From contig CAMRSX010000002.1 of NCBI GenBank assembly GCA_947053595.1, positions 83,098-147,097 of the forward strand: a DNA stretch of 64,000 nucleotides, given 5' to 3'. The DNA comes from an uncultured Clostridia bacterium. Lineage in GTDB: Bacteria > Bacillota > Clostridia > Christensenellales > UBA1242. Of this stretch, positions 1-13,449 are shown in pieces. The position numbers and the translations under genes were made by a program. The notes under the pieces were generated by a model that was not told where the DNA came from, searched no databases, and saw only the letters and a program-made list of their open reading frames with translations. The first letter of the stretch is position 1. Every line of letters begins with the position of its first letter.

Positions 1-368
1 TCACAACTGGGATATTCATCATACGGGTCGTTGTAATATTCGCGTGGAAGGAGAATCCAGAAGCCCGAATCGACAAGGTGTGATAACTGCATTCTTTTTC
101 CATCATTAAGCTTGCTGTAATCATCCCCAAACATATCCTTCCAACTTTTCTTTATATCCCCAACCATCAGATAGTCCACTTTTCCGCTGAAAGTGTCAAA
201 CACCATCTTAGGAAAATCTCCAAGTTCAAATTCTTGCATTTTCTTAAAGGTTTCAGCATCATCAGGCGAGCCATGCAGAGTTCGATAAATCTTTTTCTCT
301 AAGCGTTGATATTCCTTATATTTTTTTGCAAGTTCCGGATATTCCTCAAATTTAAACTGCATTATCAT
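1..368 (-). CDS. Putative immunity protein, second copy (3' end beyond window edge)
   Basis: Minus-strand reading gives MQFKFEEYPELAKKYKEYQRLEKKIYRTLHGSPDDAETFKKMQEFELGDFPKMVFDTFSG...LLPREYYNDPYDEYPSCE, clearly homologous to the adjacent ORF at 397-771. Confidence 0.75.
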   Translation of the reverse strand, partial: MIMQFKFEEYPELAKKYKEYQRLEKKIYRTLHGSPDDAETFKKMQEFELGDFPKMVFDTFSGKVDYLMVGDIKKSWKDMFGDDYSKLNDGKRMQLSHLVDSGFWILLPREYYNDPYDEYPSC

Positions 369-396
369 TTTTATTTTTCCTTATTTTACTTTTTCA

Positions 397-771
397 TCAG
401 TTTTCACAACTGGGATATTCGTCATACGGGTCGTTGTAATATTCGCGTGGAAGGAGAACATAAAATCCTCCATCCACAATATTTGCCAATGTTTCTTTTT
501 GTTCATCAGTAAGCTTGCTATAATCATTACCGATTACTTCACTCCATGTTTTTTTTGTGTGTCCAACCATCACATATTCAATTTTTCCATTAAAGATGTC
601 AAACACCATTTTGGGAAAATCTCCGTGTTCAAACTCATGAATTTTTTTTAAAGTTTCAGCATCATCAGGTGAGCCATGCAATGTGCGATAAAGCTTTTTT
701 CTTAATTTTTCATACTCTTTGTATTTTTTAGCAATCTCTGGATATTCCTCAAATTTAAACTGCATTATCAT
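397..771 (-). CDS. Putative immunity protein, first copy (124 aa)
   Basis: ATG at 771 with GGAGGA upstream; starts 2 nt after the stop of the 2146-aa toxin-like ORF; paralogous to 1-368. Confidence 0.75.
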   Translation of the reverse strand: MIMQFKFEEYPEIAKKYKEYEKLRKKLYRTLHGSPDDAETLKKIHEFEHGDFPKMVFDIFNGKIEYVMVGHTKKTWSEVIGNDYSKLTDEQKETLANIVDGGFYVLLPREYYNDPYDEYPSCEN

Positions 772-773
772 TT

Positions 774-3700
774 TTATTTTCCTCCATTTAGCAAATAGTT
801 TTTTGTGTTGAAGAGGTCTTGTCGGAGTTTTGTAAAATCTCCATTGCACTCTCCAACCAAAAATTTGATTGCATCTTGCCCACCTGCGTGTGCAAGAGCG
901 TTGTGGTCTTTTGTTTTCACAAACAGGCAAGTGTGCATATCTTCCAATTCATCCCAAGTGTAGCCAAGTCCGCCAGATTTAACGCCCCTTCTAACCTCAG
1001 CGACATTATGATATCTCAATCTGTTGCGGGAAGGGTCATTATAGTCAATTTTAATTCCTTTATCTCTAAAGTATGCTTTTACATCATCTGGAATTGTATC
1101 TGGATGTTCATTCCATTGCTTTGCCATTTGTTCATCTGCATAGTCAAATGTTTTTTTGCGGTTGCCGGCAACAATTCCGCCCTTGATGAACACACTGCCC
1201 TCTGACATAACCTTTCTGTCAATATAGCCATTTTTGATTGGCATCAACTGCCCTGCGTTTTTGCCGTTTTTGATTAACACATAAGCTTCTTGTGTTGGGT
1301 CTTGCAGCAAATCTGCCTTTGTGAGTTTTCTGCTTGAGCCGTCAGGATTTCTTCCAACAATTTCATAGTTTTTGTTTTTATCGCTTGGCAGATGATATTT
1401 AATTCGATTTTGCATTCTGGCAAGTTCTTCTGGTGATGGACCAACTGTTGGACCCTTTGCCAAAAGATTTGTTTTGCCCCTATAGCCATTTTCGATTTTG
1501 TATTTTTGTGTGCCGTCTTTTGAAACAAGATATGCCTCTTGTTTTGGATTTTTAAGAAGGTCGGCTTTTGTGATTTTTTTGCCGTCTGCACCCTCATAAG
1601 ACCAGTTTTCGTTTTTGTCACTTGGAAGAGTGTGCTTAATTCGGCTTTTGGTTGCATTTTCTTCAATTTTTGCTGCGCGATGATTTTTTGCTGAGGTGAT
1701 TGCCGCATTGCCAAGCACCGCCATTCCGCTCATGAATGCGCCCATGCCAAGAGAAAGCAATGCTCCTTCAATGGACATTGGCTGTCCGGAAATTGCACAG
1801 CTGATTGCATAGCTCACAAAGCTGGTTATGGTGCCGGCAACAATGTCGCCAACAGCGCGGAACCATGCAAGTTTGCCGGCAATCTTTTCGGAGAATTTGC
1901 CAAGCAGTTCGCCGCCGCCATACATCAAAATGCTGGTTGCCATGCCAAGCCCAACGGACTTCATGCAATCTCGCAGTGATGGGGTTTCGCCGTTGGCAGC
2001 GCAAGTTATCATATATGAACATGTTCCGCCATAGAATGCCGACAGTGCCTGCGCGCCCGCTTTAATCAAGAATTTTTGGAAAACAGTTTTTCCAACAGAC
2101 GCAATTTTTGCAGCGCTGTTGAAATATGCGCCAAAGCCGCCTGTTATGGCACCCGTCAAGGCGCTCACTCCAACAGACTTCCAATCCACATTTGTGACAG
2201 CTTTTCCTGAAATTGTCACCTGTGTGAAAATGTCAATGGCAGCGCTTATCATTGCTCCTCCCGCAATGTCGCCCAGCCCCGGTGCAACAGCGCAAAGCAC
2301 AATGCCAGCAAACACAACTGCTGCCGCAGCAATGGCAATCATTATGCGTTCAAACAGGCTTGCTCTTGTGGAAGGTAAATCCAACACTTCCACTTGCCCG
2401 TCTTCGGTGATGAGGAAATATTGTGTTTTTTCGATGTTGGCTTCATACCACAGCAGCGTGTCTGCATCCACGCCCAAAAATTTTTCGTCTTGATTGTGCG
2501 ACATATATGAGTTTATTGCCGCTGCCGAAATGAAGTCTGCCTTTTCAACAAACACTTCCATGCCGTTTTGGTCTTGATTTGCCAAATAGCCTTGCAAGGT
2601 TTCCAGTGTCTGCTGGAAGGAAACATTGGAAGTTATGGAATAGGCATCAAACTTGTGCTCTTGCCCATAGTTTGGATAATGGCACACAGAGCCTGTGTCA
2701 TAGTTATACACTTTGCCATAAGCGTCCACATAGCAAGTTGGAGAATCTGGCATGCGTGTGCAAATGAGCGCGTGATTTGCAACATAATATGTGACATATT
2801 CTTCATAAGCAACATAGTGATTGACTCCCCACTTTTCGTCCAGCTTAAGCAAAAATTTGTTATATTCAAAATCTTCTTGATTTTCTTCCAAGCGCTCAAC
2901 AAAGATGTCTTTTTTGAGGTCTTCCTCTTGCAGCATATATTGCCCGTTGTATGCAATGAAGCCCGCGCCAAAATATTTCTCTTCGCCAACTTCAAAGCCT
3001 GTGGCATAGTGCGTGAAGCCAATGCCCTTGATGACTTTGTTTTCGCCAGAAATTGTGGCGGTGGCATCAAACACATCTTCATAGCCCATTTCCAGCAAGT
3101 CAACCATAACCAAAGAGTTTAGGAAGCTTTGTTTGTTGTTGAAGCCAAGCTCGTCAACATATTCTTCTGCAAGTGCATATTCGCTTGAGCGCACTTGCCA
3201 AGAAGCGTCCTCTTGCTGCGCCTGAAGCTGCAAAAGTTGTTGCTTTTCATTTTGCCGGTCAATCACGCGAGAGATGGTTTTTGTGAAAGCCTGCTCTTCT
3301 GCCAAGCCCTTTGATGCCATAAGCAGAATGCCTTGCGACAATGTCAACATGCAAAAGCACAAAACGGCAATGATGATTGGCACAATCACGCGGTCATAAA
3401 ACCCTTTTTTTGCACTGAGTTTAACTGCCTTTGCGCCCTTTATTTTTTGCGGCTGTGCATATTTTTGTCGGACATAAGTTTCAAGATTGTCCGCTGCGCC
3501 AAGGTTGCCACTTAAGTGAAGCTGAGTTTTGTATGCGCCCTCTGGTGCACTGAAAGCTTCCACGCAATAAGAGAATTTGTTGTTTTTGATGAAGCGCTTT
3601 AAGAATACAAACAAAAGCCCACCAAATGTGACAAGAAGCGCAAGATAAATCAAAAGCTTGGATGTTGTGGAGGCAAATCCGCCGTCTGCAATCACAAGGT

Positions 3701-7210: not shown

Positions 7211-10200
7211 TCACACCTCCTCAAACAGAATGGAAGAATATTTTTCAATCAGCCGCAAAATTTCTTGCATGGTTGTGCTGCCTTTTGCAAGGGCAATCTT
7301 AAGATAAGCCCCGCCAAACAAATCAAAAATTTCTGGTGGCACCTGTGCAAAATCTTCATAGGTGAAAAGCCCATATTTCTCAATGTCAGCCAGCATCTTT
7401 TCTTCATCAATTTTCATGGTTTCTTTGTCAACCTCAAAGATGTTGACAAACGCCTGAGTTTCTGAAGGCATCGACAAAAATCCATTCACATAAAGGCTTA
7501 AATAAGACGCCGTAACAGGGCTCCAAGCCGTGGTTGTCAGGCGGATGTTCTCCGCCTTCACAAGCCTGACATTGGTGTTTTGCATTCCGCTGGCTGTCAA
7601 ACTTGCCTTGTTAAACAAGTGTCCAACAAACTGTTCAAAATTGTGTTTTGTGATGTAAACAAATTTGTTTTCAGAGACATCCCAAAAACCATGTTCGTCA
7701 ATCATGTCCACAGTGGAGCCATCCTCAAAGGTTAAACGCGTGACAACATATTCCGCCTCTTCATGCACATCCACAAACAAGATGTCTGCGCTGTCAAATG
7801 CGCCTGTTTCAAAGTTCCAAACCAGCAGTTTGTCTGTCATTTCAAGCTGTTCAACTTTCTTCTGGCTGCCGTCTGCCAGTGTGACAAGTGTGCCAGACGC
7901 CACGCAAGTTGGAGATTTTTCATACACAATATAAACATTCACCGTTGCGCCGTTTGTGGAAGACAAATTGCCCGGTTTCCACGTATTACTTGCGCCGCAA
8001 TATTCGTTGGAAGCGCTGCCCACGCACCAGCGTAAAACTTGCCATTTGTCTATGGTTGGAGCAGTGAGAGTGTAATCTTGGTCATAAGAATAATTTGTTG
8101 TTCCTCTATGGGTTGTGGCATCATTTGCAACTGTGTATGTGGCAACTTTATAAGTGATTGCGCGCCACTTTCCATACACCTTTTCATTTCTGCCAGCAAG
8201 GTCGGTTTGCAAACTTCCGTTTTTGTCATAAAAAGTTTTTTCAATATTTCCTTCTTTAAAATAGAAGCCATCAAAAATATATCCCGTTTTTTGCGCATCC
8301 ACTTTGCTTACACTGCCCGCAATGTTGACAATGCTTGAAAAGTTTCCGCCGTTCTCCACAACTTGTGTGTTGATTGGCAGCAAAAGCGTGCAGCAAAAGT
8401 TTGGATGCCCCGCAATTTTTTGTCCGTTATATTTTTCTTCTGTTGAAATTTTAAGTGTTTGTGTGGCAGAAGCATTTGCTGCCGTCACTGTCACAATGCC
8501 GTCAGAAATGGAAATCCCGCCTTCTGAAGAACCCGCTTCAAAATCCAACAAGCCAAAGGTGTAAGTTGCATTGTTGTCAAAGCCTTGCCCAGCCACAAGG
8601 TTGCTTCTTAAGTTGGTGCCATTTGCCATAAGCTTAAAGCCGTCCGCAAACTTCACTTGCCCTTGCAGTGGACGGAACACGCCAATTTTTGGCAGTACAA
8701 TTTCATATTGCTCTTCTCCGTCACGGATGATGGCTTTGGCTTCAACAAAACTTCTTCCGCTTGCGGTTTGCTTAACGCAAATTTTTCCGCCAGCAGAAGC
8801 GTTTGCGTCCACATTATCTCCCAAAAATTCCAAGCCAGCAAAGCTAAGTCCAAAATCTTGCAGCGCCATGCCGCCAAACATAATTTCCACGTTGGCAGAA
8901 CGGCCAACAAAAATTTGAGGATTGTTTTTGTCCAACTTTACGCCAGCGCTGTCTTTGTCAAGCAAGATATTAAATTTTCCAGCTTCCAAAATGCCAAATT
9001 TGGAAACCACCTGAGAGTGCTGTGAAAACATCTTGTCAACCACAAACTCAAAGGTGCTTTCCTTTTTAAGTCTGTCATTGGTGCAAACTTTCACCCAAAC
9101 CTTGGTGCCTGCACTTGTGTTTTGCTTCACCTTTATGGTGCCAGAGGTTTGCGAAACCTCTTCAATGTGCTGCCTGTCAAAATCCACAACCTTCCAAGAC
9201 ACATCGTCTGCGTTTTTGGAATGTGTGACAGAAAATGTTTCAAATTTTCCTCTTGAAAGTGGCTGTGCAGAAAGTGTGAGCTCTTCGTTTGGAATGTAAA
9301 CCTCCAAAGCCACTTGCGCAATGATGCCGTCTTGAACAGCCTTCAGCACAATTTCCCTGTCAATCAAGCATTGCGAAAGATTTTTCTTCACCAAAAAACT
9401 CTTTTCAATTTGGTCGCCATTTTGGAAAGTTCCTTCAATGTTTTCTGCGCCCTTAACAATGCTTATGATTGCGTTGTTTTGGCTGGCGGTTGGGCTGGTG
9501 GCAGTGAAAAGGTTGACGCATTCTCCGCTTTGAATGCTGCTTATTGGATTGGTGTTGTCCGCAGTCAGCACAAGCGTTTTTGTTGGTTTGTAAATTTCAA
9601 AAGCCACTGTGTTGGAAACAACACCGTCTTTGGTTGTTGCCTGAATTTCCAGCATCAGTTTGCCAGCTGGAAGAGCGTCTTTCACAACAAGCTGCTCATC
9701 CACAAGGCTTGCATAAGCGTTGTCAAGCAGCGAATATGTCACCTCTTTGTTGGTGCAGTTGTGTGGCAAAAGTTGTGCTTGCAAAAGGTTGGAAAGTTTG
9801 TATGTTGTGCCTTCTTGCACATTTTCTTGCAAAGCAGTCAAGTGCAAACTTGTGGCAGGAACATACACCCCAATTTCCACATCTTGCTTCAAAGTGATTC
9901 CGTTTTGATTGGACAAAACACTCACCACAAACGAAGGATTTTCCATTTCAATTTCACTTGCCTTGGCAATTTTCACGCTGTGTCCTTCCACCTGTGCAAG
10001 CAGTGGATTGCTTACCTTCAAACTGAAGTTTTTGTTGCAATCAGAAACATTGAAAGGTGTTGGAAAAATCACATCAAAATCCAGCACTGTTTCTGGAAGA
10101 TATAAGCCATCTTTGTTTGGTTTTGTTTGTCTGGCAATCAGCATGCTGGTGGCATAAACTGGAACAACCGTCACCTCTTGTGTGTATGAGTTGTTGCCCA

Positions 10201-11098
10201 CAATTTCAATTTTCACATTGATTTTTGTGCCAATTTCCGCCGTTTCAGAAACTGACAAAACACCGTTTTCGTCAATGGTGGCAGTGTCGCTTTCAACATC
10301 CACACTGTAAACCACTTTGTTCCACTCGTTCAGGCTGTTTTCGTCCACCTTAAAAGAATATTTTCCCTGCTGCTGAACTTCCTTCAAATCAGAATTTGCA
10401 GGCTCAATTTCAATCACTGGAATGTAAAGTTCAAAAGTTTTGATTGCAAAAATGTCAGGGTCGCTGGCGCTTGCCACGCGCACGCAAACTTGCAGATTGT
10501 CTTGTGGCAGATGGCTGTTGATGCAAAGCAAGCCGTCTTGCGAAAGAGTGGCATATTCTTGCCCCTGTGTGATGCAAAACACAACTTCTTCATTTGTGAC
10601 ATCCAGTGGTTGCAAATCCACTGAAAGCATCAGCACCTCACCCTGCGCAAGACGCGTCTTTTTGTTTAAAATTTCCAATTTTTCTGCTGGCGTGCGCACA
10701 ACAGAAAACACAAGGCTGTTTTCGCCTTCCACTTTGTCAACAGTGGTTGCCACTTCCACCTCTTTGCCAACTGGCGCATCTTTGTTTATGCAAATTTGGT
10801 TGCCAGAAATGGAAGCAAATTGGCTGCCTCGGACAATTTTGAAAGAAACTTCTTCAACAGTTGCTCTGGCAATCTCTGGAAAAACCAGCGCTTGCAAGGT
10901 TGCACTTTGCCCCGCCCTAAGTTGCAAACTGCCGTTGACATCCAACTGCACTCTTTCAATTTCGTTTTTTTCAACAACAAAATCAATTCCACTTTTGGCA
11001 AACGCGTTGTTTCCCACCAAAAGTGTCATTGTGCCACAAAAAAGCATGGCAAGCATTGTCATCACACAAAACAAAATTCTTTTTCCACTTATTTGCAT
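7211..11098 (-). CDS. Secreted Ig-like repeat protein with InlB-like repeat and C-terminal Hint-like domain
   Basis: Signal peptide; CVASGTLVTLADGSQKKVEQLEMTDKLLVWNFETGAF...DEHGFWDV...SLYVNGFLSM Hint-type blocks; SD AAGGAGGG. Confidence 0.8.
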   Translation of the reverse strand: MQISGKRILFCVMTMLAMLFCGTMTLLVGNNAFAKSGIDFVVEKNEIERVQLDVNGSLQLRAGQSATLQALVFPEIARATVEEVSFKIVRGSQFASISGNQICINKDAPVGKEVEVATTVDKVEGENSLVFSVVRTPAEKLEILNKKTRLAQGEVLMLSVDLQPLDVTNEEVVFCITQGQEYATLSQDGLLCINSHLPQDNLQVCVRVASASDPDIFAIKTFELYIPVIEIEPANSDLKEVQQQGKYSFKVDENSLNEWNKVVYSVDVESDTATIDENGVLSVSETAEIGTKINVKIEIVGNNSYTQEVTVVPVYATSMLIARQTKPNKDGLYLPETVLDFDVIFPTPFNVSDCNKNFSLKVSNPLLAQVEGHSVKIAKASEIEMENPSFVVSVLSNQNGITLKQDVEIGVYVPATSLHLTALQENVQEGTTYKLSNLLQAQLLPHNCTNKEVTYSLLDNAYASLVDEQLVVKDALPAGKLMLEIQATTKDGVVSNTVAFEIYKPTKTLVLTADNTNPISSIQSGECVNLFTATSPTASQNNAIISIVKGAENIEGTFQNGDQIEKSFLVKKNLSQCLIDREIVLKAVQDGIIAQVALEVYIPNEELTLSAQPLSRGKFETFSVTHSKNADDVSWKVVDFDRQHIEEVSQTSGTIKVKQNTSAGTKVWVKVCTNDRLKKESTFEFVVDKMFSQHSQVVSKFGILEAGKFNILLDKDSAGVKLDKNNPQIFVGRSANVEIMFGGMALQDFGLSFAGLEFLGDNVDANASAGGKICVKQTASGRSFVEAKAIIRDGEEQYEIVLPKIGVFRPLQGQVKFADGFKLMANGTNLRSNLVAGQGFDNNATYTFGLLDFEAGSSEGGISISDGIVTVTAANASATQTLKISTEEKYNGQKIAGHPNFCCTLLLPINTQVVENGGNFSSIVNIAGSVSKVDAQKTGYIFDGFYFKEGNIEKTFYDKNGSLQTDLAGRNEKVYGKWRAITYKVATYTVANDATTHRGTTNYSYDQDYTLTAPTIDKWQVLRWCVGSASNEYCGASNTWKPGNLSSTNGATVNVYIVYEKSPTCVASGTLVTLADGSQKKVEQLEMTDKLLVWNFETGAFDSADILFVDVHEEAEYVVTRLTFEDGSTVDMIDEHGFWDVSENKFVYITKHNFEQFVGHLFNKASLTASGMQNTNVRLVKAENIRLTTTAWSPVTASYLSLYVNGFLSMPSETQAFVNIFEVDKETMKIDEEKMLADIEKYGLFTYEDFAQVPPEIFDLFGGAYLKIALAKGSTTMQEILRLIEKYSSILFEEV

Positions 11099-11125
11099 AG
11101 CTTTCCCTCCTTAAATTTCCAGCCC

Positions 11126-13387
11126 TTAAACCTTAGAAAACTGGCAGTCTTCCACAAAAATCAAGACATCATCCATAACAAACACATTTGCAATCAGCAA
11201 ATTTTCTTGAAGCGCAAAGGTAAAATCACCAACAGAAAGGTTAAAACTCTCATCCTCAAAGCTGATGACAACAATCTTGTCGTCGCTTAGCCTATAGTTT
11301 CCAGAAATCTGCACCAAATTTTGTGAGTTGAAAGTTGAAGAAAAGCTGAATGTGCCGTCCGTGTTGAAAGTGTAAGTTGCATTGCAAGTCACCTGCTCTT
11401 CTTCTGACTGGTCTTTCAAAACGCAAACCCAACTTCCAACAATGTCAGCGGAAGAATAGTCCACCTCTTCCAATTCCCAAAGTGCAAACAGCAAATATTT
11501 CTCTTTCTTTTCAGTCAAAAACTGATGAAAAGCCTCTTCGTTCAGCTTGCTTCCGCCTTCCGTTTTCGCCCAGCCCACAAAAACATATCCAACTCTCTCA
11601 AAGCCCGAAATGTCCAAAAGCGTGCTGTTTGCATCCAGCGTGATGTTTTCTTCCAGCTGGTCATAAAGTTTCAGCGTCAGTTCAATTTTGTCACTTTCTT
11701 TCTCCAGCTTCAAAACCGTCACATCACAGTTGCCAGAAAATTCCACAGTCTTAAGCTGAGCATAAGAAAAACTTTGTCCGTCAATCACAAATTGGAAGAA
11801 ATGGTTTTCAGTGTCGGCAAACACCATGCCCACGCGCTGATAATGATTGTCGTCCAGCGCGCCCGTGCGCCCAGCGCTGTAAGAGAAGTTGAGTTCTTTT
11901 CCATCGCCCACAAAGCGAATTAAAAATCTTTCTCCCTCAAGTTCAATCGTGGAAAGTGCAAGCGTCTGCCCCTTGGTGATTTTCAAAACAAGGGTGTTGT
12001 TTGGATATTTCGTGTTTTGTCTGACACCATCCAGCACAAAATCCAAAACAGACGGATTGATGGAGCGCACATTCAGCACTGCGCCAACTGGAATTTCATA
12101 AATGCCGTTTTGCGTGTCAAACAGCAGGTTGTGCTCTAAGAAGGCAGTGTTGTCGTTGTGCCTAACTCCGTCATCGTCCACATAGCTGAACGTCCAAGCC
12201 ACAGAAACATCACTTGGCGCTTCCACCTCCAGCCTTCTTTTGCTTTGATATGGCTTTTCAACATTCAAACCTTCCACTTTGGCGCTTTTGGTGATGCCGC
12301 CCTCAGAATAAGCAATTTCAACCCATGTTGTGCCCGACATCAAAATGCCTTGCTTGCAAACAAAATTGCTCACCTTTTCTGTCAGATTGCCCTCATAATG
12401 CGCTGTCACAATCAGTCCATTCATGTTGAAGTTTTCGCCTTGCACATATTCTTTCTGCACAGCCGTGTCATTCACTTCAAGGGCAGTCAGTTTTCTGCGC
12501 GCCACTTCAATGTTTTGCAGCGCGGTTTTTGTGACATTGTTGAAGGTGTAAGAAATCACCACACTTTCTTGCCCAAAAACAAGCGGTGTTTCTTCATCCA
12601 CCACAAAGCCTTCCTGCAAGTCTTCAAACAAAAATTCATAGTTTGCGCGGATTTTCAAGCCGCTCTTGTCAAAAGCTTCGCCCTCAAAATATGTGGTTTT
12701 GCTGGCAGAACTCAAAACCTGAATGCTTTGCAGGCTTTTTCTGTTCACCAACACAGGCACTTTCGCGGTTTTTTGTCCATAAAAAACAAAAATTTCCGTT
12801 GCGGCAGCTGTCAGTGGAGTGCGCTCAACTTCAAATTGCGAAATTTTTGCATCATAAACTCCAAAATTGCCCCAAACGGAAATGCTGGAAACATCAAAAT
12901 ATTGTCCTTCTGTGTAAGTTTGTGAAAAATCATCCTTTGTGATGGCATAAAGACCTTGCAAAGTGGTTCCATCACGCGGATTGATGAAAATTGGCAAGCG
13001 CGAAGAAAAAGTGTTGTCACTTTCAACAGTCACAAGAAGAGTAACCTCTCCAAGTGTGTTTCCAAAGTCAACAACACCATTTTCAGAAATCGTTGCAGCA
13101 AGAGAATTGCCCTCAAAATTCCAAGACACTTCGGGCTTTTCAAAAGCAGACAAATCTTCCATGCCATTGATTTTCAACTCAAAGGCAACATCACTTTCAA
13201 AAACTTCTGCATCAAAGCTGTCCACCACATTGCCTTCATGCACAAACTCAACAGACGAAATTGTAAACTTTGGCAAAGCAGCATTTGTGTTGCGAGGCAA
13301 AAAGACGCACAAAATTGCAACAACAACCCCCAGCACAACAACTGCACTTATGATTGGCAATATGATTTTAATCTTTTTGCAATTCAC
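11126..13387 (-). CDS. Membrane-anchored surface protein with bacterial Ig-like (Big_3-like) repeats and InlB-like motif
   Basis: N-terminal TM IKIILPIISAVVVLGVVVAILCVFLP; repeats YTEGQYFDVSSISVWGNFG..., YFEGEAFDKSGLKIRANYE..., YVQGENFNMNGLIVTAHYEG; GTG start at 13387 with GGAGAGG upstream (track ORF runs to 13426). Confidence 0.75.
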   Translation of the reverse strand: MNCKKIKIILPIISAVVVLGVVVAILCVFLPRNTNAALPKFTISSVEFVHEGNVVDSFDAEVFESDVAFELKINGMEDLSAFEKPEVSWNFEGNSLAATISENGVVDFGNTLGEVTLLVTVESDNTFSSRLPIFINPRDGTTLQGLYAITKDDFSQTYTEGQYFDVSSISVWGNFGVYDAKISQFEVERTPLTAAATEIFVFYGQKTAKVPVLVNRKSLQSIQVLSSASKTTYFEGEAFDKSGLKIRANYEFLFEDLQEGFVVDEETPLVFGQESVVISYTFNNVTKTALQNIEVARRKLTALEVNDTAVQKEYVQGENFNMNGLIVTAHYEGNLTEKVSNFVCKQGILMSGTTWVEIAYSEGGITKSAKVEGLNVEKPYQSKRRLEVEAPSDVSVAWTFSYVDDDGVRHNDNTAFLEHNLLFDTQNGIYEIPVGAVLNVRSINPSVLDFVLDGVRQNTKYPNNTLVLKITKGQTLALSTIELEGERFLIRFVGDGKELNFSYSAGRTGALDDNHYQRVGMVFADTENHFFQFVIDGQSFSYAQLKTVEFSGNCDVTVLKLEKESDKIELTLKLYDQLEENITLDANSTLLDISGFERVGYVFVGWAKTEGGSKLNEEAFHQFLTEKKEKYLLFALWELEEVDYSSADIVGSWVCVLKDQSEEEQVTCNATYTFNTDGTFSFSSTFNSQNLVQISGNYRLSDDKIVVISFEDESFNLSVGDFTFALQENLLIANVFVMDDVLIFVEDCQFSKV

Positions 13388-13449
13388 CAAAATACCCTCT
13401 CCTTCAAAGCCACAATCACAGCCCAAAAATTCAGGTAAAATTCAGTTTG

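Follow-up and report, generated by a model that had tools for sequence, protein, structure and literature searches.

Why should the gene of a large polymorphic toxin be followed by two tandem copies of one small gene that are alike at their ends and different in the middle? This question is raised by the left edge of the window, the 64,000-nt stretch of DNA analysed here (G000:C2:83098-147097), which belongs to a 1.17-Mb genome that is 99.6% complete. The toxin gene and the two copies, referred to as imm1 and imm2, form an operon-like run on the minus strand, with a gap of 2 bases between the toxin stop and imm1 and a spacer of 28 nt between imm1 and imm2 (Table 1). Both open reading frames (ORFs) of a preliminary description of this DNA were confirmed, each encoding 124 residues, and the proteins are 73% identical. 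The second one starts at 368 and runs past the edge of the window (L009:16592-16966). The expectation in the same description that more copies may lie further to the left was not borne out, as the whole host genome holds exactly two and the left-hand neighbours are unrelated. Directly after imm2 lies an ORF of 117 aa (L009:16217-16570) that is unrelated to imm2 and shows neither a family match nor a relative among the loci compared, and is a possible candidate for a further immunity gene; to its left are genes that we take, judging by eye, to be infC, rpmI and rplT. Upstream of the toxin and on the same strand (window 7211-13426), two more large ORFs carry Big_2/Big_3 Ig-like domains; close to the end of the first, there is also a weak match to Hint (15.6 bits, under the cut-off). 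A search of phages and plasmids gave no match.

Table 1. Features at the left edge of the window (positions in the window)
Feature	Position	Strand	Description or basis
Polymorphic toxin, 2146 aa	774..7214	-	N-terminal hydrophobic stretch, List_Bact repeat, hydrophobic pre-toxin region, nuclease tip
Toxin tip, weak WHH (HNH/EndoVII) nuclease match	777..1220	-	PF14414; aligns with the tips of G157 and G088
Linker module, tandem duplicate preceding the tip	1221..1643	-	Sequence: RIKHTLPSDKN.. / RIKYHLPSDKN..
imm1, immunity-like, 124 aa	397..771	-	ORF; 12-row family profile E=3e-40; adjoins the end of the toxin gene
imm2, second tandem copy, 124 aa	1..368, last 6 bases outside the window	-	ORF; profile E=6e-40
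5' homology block of imm1, 41 nt exact (9 nt upstream and first 32 nt)	740..780	-	Exact-match comparison
5' homology block of imm2, 41 nt exact	337..377	-	Exact-match comparison
3' homology block of imm1, 69 nt, 1 mismatch to imm2, covering the stop and 7 nt of spacer	390..458	-	Exact-match comparison and dS
3' homology block of imm2, portion within the window	1..55	-	Exact-match comparison

The preliminary description recognised no known family in the two copies, and this is in line with searches of Pfam, NCBIfam and PHROGs, and of the PDB by sequence and by fold, none of which gave a credible match. Weak matches to the Drc1-Sld2, YxiJ, I-OnuI and GST folds were considered as an identity and rejected; since they are scattered, lie below the cut-offs and are not shared among the members, they were taken as chance. 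The AlphaFold2 model of imm1 is of fair quality (pLDDT 83) and combines three helices with a short hairpin and additional short helices, and its comparison with the folds of the PDB gave no match (best E 1.2). A family profile found members in 8 of 396 genomes of the order, in 16 of 310 genomes of the taxonomic family and, among 392 genomes of the class, in none except the window's own. Among the genomes searched the family was found only in this order.

An association with toxins emerged from the genomic context of the relatives. Many members are orphan genes remote from toxins, yet in six genomes the family is located directly behind WHH-type nuclease toxins, usually as tandem copies. Such arrays in relatives of the same order comprise two to four copies and mostly follow toxins with a WHH tip, several of them being interrupted by contig ends. 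For instance, three copies follow a toxin in G157 that shares the pre-toxin region of the window toxin, and four copies follow a toxin of 2088 aa in G088. G609, G610, G612 and G616 have two or more copies each; in G609, and on split contigs in G610 and G612, they come after toxins of the window's tip type. In addition, G054 encodes the family domain in fusion with SUKH-1, an established immunity domain. The fusion protein (L010 5925-7058) has 377 aa and is composed of a hydrophobic N-terminus, SUKH-1 and the family domain; its gene lies between what are presumably gyrB and gyrA. Position, arrays, type of tip and SUKH fusion together point to imm1 and imm2 as putative immunity proteins against WHH-type nuclease tips, so that the earlier naming of the pair as immunity genes is supported by its context.

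The comparison of the two window copies revealed how unevenly they have diverged; the uniform divergence that would have contradicted the earlier reading was not seen. They are identical at 295 of 375 nucleotides and in 91 of 125 aligned codons, stop included. The sliding identity amounts to 98% in the last 20 codons against 60-70% across codons 61-95, and the differing middle sequences that had been quoted for the two copies are correct. The variable centre is flanked by a 5' block at coding coordinates -8..32 and a 3' block at 314..382; the stop ends at 375, and the second block thus reaches into the spacer. The synonymous sites separate the two ends: dS reaches 1.16 over the first 20 codons and 1.20 over the middle, both saturated, versus 0.08 in the last 20 codons, with synonymous changes in 6 of 17, 18 of 49 and 1 of 19 codons, respectively. 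As dS is low only in the last 20 codons, homogenisation at the DNA level is evident in this pair for the 3' end alone. The earlier proposal of conserved, homogenised ends thus holds in part. The 3' end is homogenised or kept at the DNA level; at the 5' end past codon 11, conservation is confined to the protein. The contrast in synonymous change between the last 20 codons and the middle is significant (Fisher p=0.007), with a segment border prompted by the earlier observation itself, and a longest-run permutation of the same synonymous codons is not (p=0.37); for these reasons imm1 and imm2 alone constitute modest evidence. In none of the segments of any pair analysed did dN exceed dS, and positive selection on the middle, being unsupported, was rejected.

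Two explanations that dispense with recombination have to be weighed against this pattern. In the first, the pair results from a plain tandem duplication, after which selection on the protein fold kept the ends and the middle drifted. The family at large provides reasons to take it seriously: the residues that are invariant across genomes of different species are situated at the ends (F5, F7 and P11; L107, P108 and Y112), and the frequency of the majority residue is 0.57 for residues 1-20 and 0.71 for residues 105-112 versus 0.35-0.48 between. In the window pair, whose synonymous sites are saturated at the 5' end, such a duplication would account for most of that end. It fits poorly with residues 113-124, the majority frequency of which is only 0.24 in the family and which are nevertheless identical between imm1 and imm2, as well as with the low dS and the identity beyond the stop codon. 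In the second explanation, the 3' identity represents a conserved nucleic-acid element, such as a terminator, an RNA structure or a signal for translational coupling; in agreement with this, the block takes in the stop codon and extends into the spacer that precedes the next gene. However, neither a stable fold (z -0.26) nor a terminator-like site is present at the 3' block, and the 3' sequences of other arrays are unrelated, so that we attach only a very slight probability to this explanation.

The arrays of the relatives were more informative with respect to plain duplication. Copies 1 and 2 of G088 show no difference in their first 60 and last 80-odd nt and hardly any in the spacer, whereas part of their middle is 50-60% identical; synonymous changes affect 0 of 17 and 0 of 18 codons at the ends versus 26 of 94 between (p=9e-5). 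Moreover, copy 2 is a mosaic, the ends of which resemble copy 1 and codons 58-154 of which resemble copy 4, with a split of 77 to 20 among informative sites that none of 2000 permutations equalled. The cross-species comparison of G612_b with G609_b gave 12 differences among the 519 sites of the middle (98% identical) versus 10 over the initial 60 nt (p=1.7e-5), and over these 60 nt G612_b is nearer to the paralogue in its own genome (93%) than to its orthologue G609_b. The 5' ends of this pair have been exchanged. The proposed end homogenisation is in this respect strengthened by the mosaics in sister arrays. Furthermore, 40 nt of 3' flank are identical between G610_a and G610_b. The pattern is not found throughout: the mosaic test on the G157 triplets is not significant (p 0.05-0.41), the ends of the within-genome pairs of G609 are ordinary, and the pairs of G508 and G573 are too divergent to show end blocks. 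In summary, the recombination statistics are significant in G088 and in G612/G609, and the window pair shows only the 3' contrast in dS. Plain duplication cannot yield the mosaics and is refuted as far as the relatives are concerned; in the case of the window pair we regard it as distinctly improbable, and the 3' block was presumably made by recombination rather than by constraint. Another tandem immunity-like pair, unrelated to the present family (198 and 201 aa), lies behind a related toxin in G200 (L048 6162-7384), and its 3' end is homogenised as well (synonymous changes 1 of 17 vs 28 of 69, p=0.005).

The toxin itself was analysed with respect to the tip that the pair would recognise. Its hydrophobic pre-toxin region is common to toxins across the order, and a scan of GTDB with the toxin backbone gave as its sole match the rumen Clostridiales MAG RUG146, which has the same arrays as G157. 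Across the order one and the same pre-toxin region precedes quite different tips (L038 (G157:C2) and L048-L052), several of which are set, as we assume from inspection by eye, after a Hint-like segment. Judged from these sequences, the shared region appears to belong to an order-specific polymorphic toxin backbone. The tip of the window toxin scores 22.3 bits against PF14414 (Tox-WHH), under the curated cut-off of 25.1, which is passed by the tips of G157 (34.5) and G088 (26.1); those of G609 (23.8) and G610 (23.3) are under the cut-off too. In the WHH motif the window tip reads TWDELED where relatives read TWHECED or TLHETVE, i.e. Asp for His, and it retains the later H and H.GG. The score below the cut-off and the Asp in place of His in TW-H-E make the activity of the tip uncertain; the nuclease may be a variant form or a weakened one. 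The structure model of the tip (pLDDT 37) was set aside as a basis.

The region preceding the tip bears on a third explanation, in which imm2 is an orphan left behind when an older toxin tip was displaced, as known from Vibrio T6SS and from Rhs arrays, and the 3' identity is the join of the recombination rather than an exchange between copies. Displacement is reported to build immunity arrays elsewhere (PMC5361080). The linker module of about 60-79 residues before the window tip is duplicated, with one copy in the toxin of G157, and this duplication may have been left by an exchange of tips. Moreover, the C-terminus of the G616 toxin has no WHH match, yet copies of the same immunity family are found nearby. 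On the other hand, the 28-nt spacer between imm1 and imm2 holds no toxin remnant, a second matching tip was searched for in the host genome and is absent, and the identity of the two proteins marks them as paralogues of one family. We therefore consider displacement unlikely, although less so than plain duplication. The G616 locus (L085 1190-2350) shows two further peculiarities: its two family copies come after a gene that resembles the SUKH-like neighbour of G088, and its toxin gene is apparently split into two ORFs by a frameshift or an assembly error.

Taken together, the data make it probable, in our view, that imm1 and imm2 are immunity proteins against WHH tips, built as a scaffold with conserved ends around a variable specificity centre, and that the copies recombine through their end blocks. 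The most likely target of imm1 would be the tip of the adjoining toxin, which it would bind and neutralise, whereas imm2 would neutralise a variant WHH-type tip borne by sibling or competitor strains. The variable centre (about residues 20-104) would set the specificity, and the conserved ends of the protein would serve as the scaffold. At the DNA level the end blocks would offer the homology for RecA-dependent recombination between the tandem copies (RecA is found in the host genome), which could homogenise the ends, alter the copy number and swap the variable centre as a cassette. A more far-reaching proposal, to which we give somewhat less than an even chance, is that this order-specific and structurally unassigned family carries its centre as a mobile cassette, within and between species, that tracks the changing tips of a toxin outside type VII secretion. 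The sister species offer natural experiments in this respect: G612 and G609 combine a near-identical middle with swapped 5' ends, and G616 has retained its array next to a toxin with a different tip. The proposed role of the centre in specificity is thereby directly testable.

Several known systems resemble the window locus in part. In the T6SS arrays of Vibrio cholerae, as reported in PMC5361080, extra immunity genes pile up behind an effector via recombination, as they do here; whole effector-immunity pairs displace each other there, whereas here paralogues exchange segments without effector remnants. The homogeneous polyimmunity loci named by Zhang et al. 2012 (PMC3482391) are likewise tandem, same-strand and closely spaced paralogues of one family, and SUKH-like genes are intermixed in the relatives of the window as well. 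Unlike those loci, the window copies are directly downstream of the toxin, and their family matches none of SUKH, Imm28 and Imm37, which that study lists for Tox-WHH. The closest parallel is provided by esaG and tipC, which also consist of tandem, non-identical immunity paralogues behind a polymorphic toxin. According to Garrett et al. 2022 (PMC9484751), the copies recombine in both; tipC has two homology blocks, at the 5' and 3' ends, around a variable centre, and in esaG a third block covers the gene end and intergenic DNA. The window pair shares the end blocks around a variable centre, and their lengths (41 and 69 nt) are near the 40-70 nt cited there as sufficient for recombination. In contrast to esaG and tipC, which belong to type VII secretion, the window family is unrelated to them by sequence searches and has only two copies, its toxin is large with an N-terminal hydrophobic stretch and a WHH-like tip, no WXG100 gene was found in the host genome, and the toxin has no LXG or WXG match in Pfam. 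The window toxin is thus probably delivered without type VII secretion. By analogy, the mechanism proposed here is the one already described for the esaG and tipC arrays, and the family appears to be new. End-block recombination, known from the T7SS toxins of Staphylococcus and Streptococcus, would thereby extend to an uncultured lineage with small genomes, to a new immunity family and probably to another delivery route.
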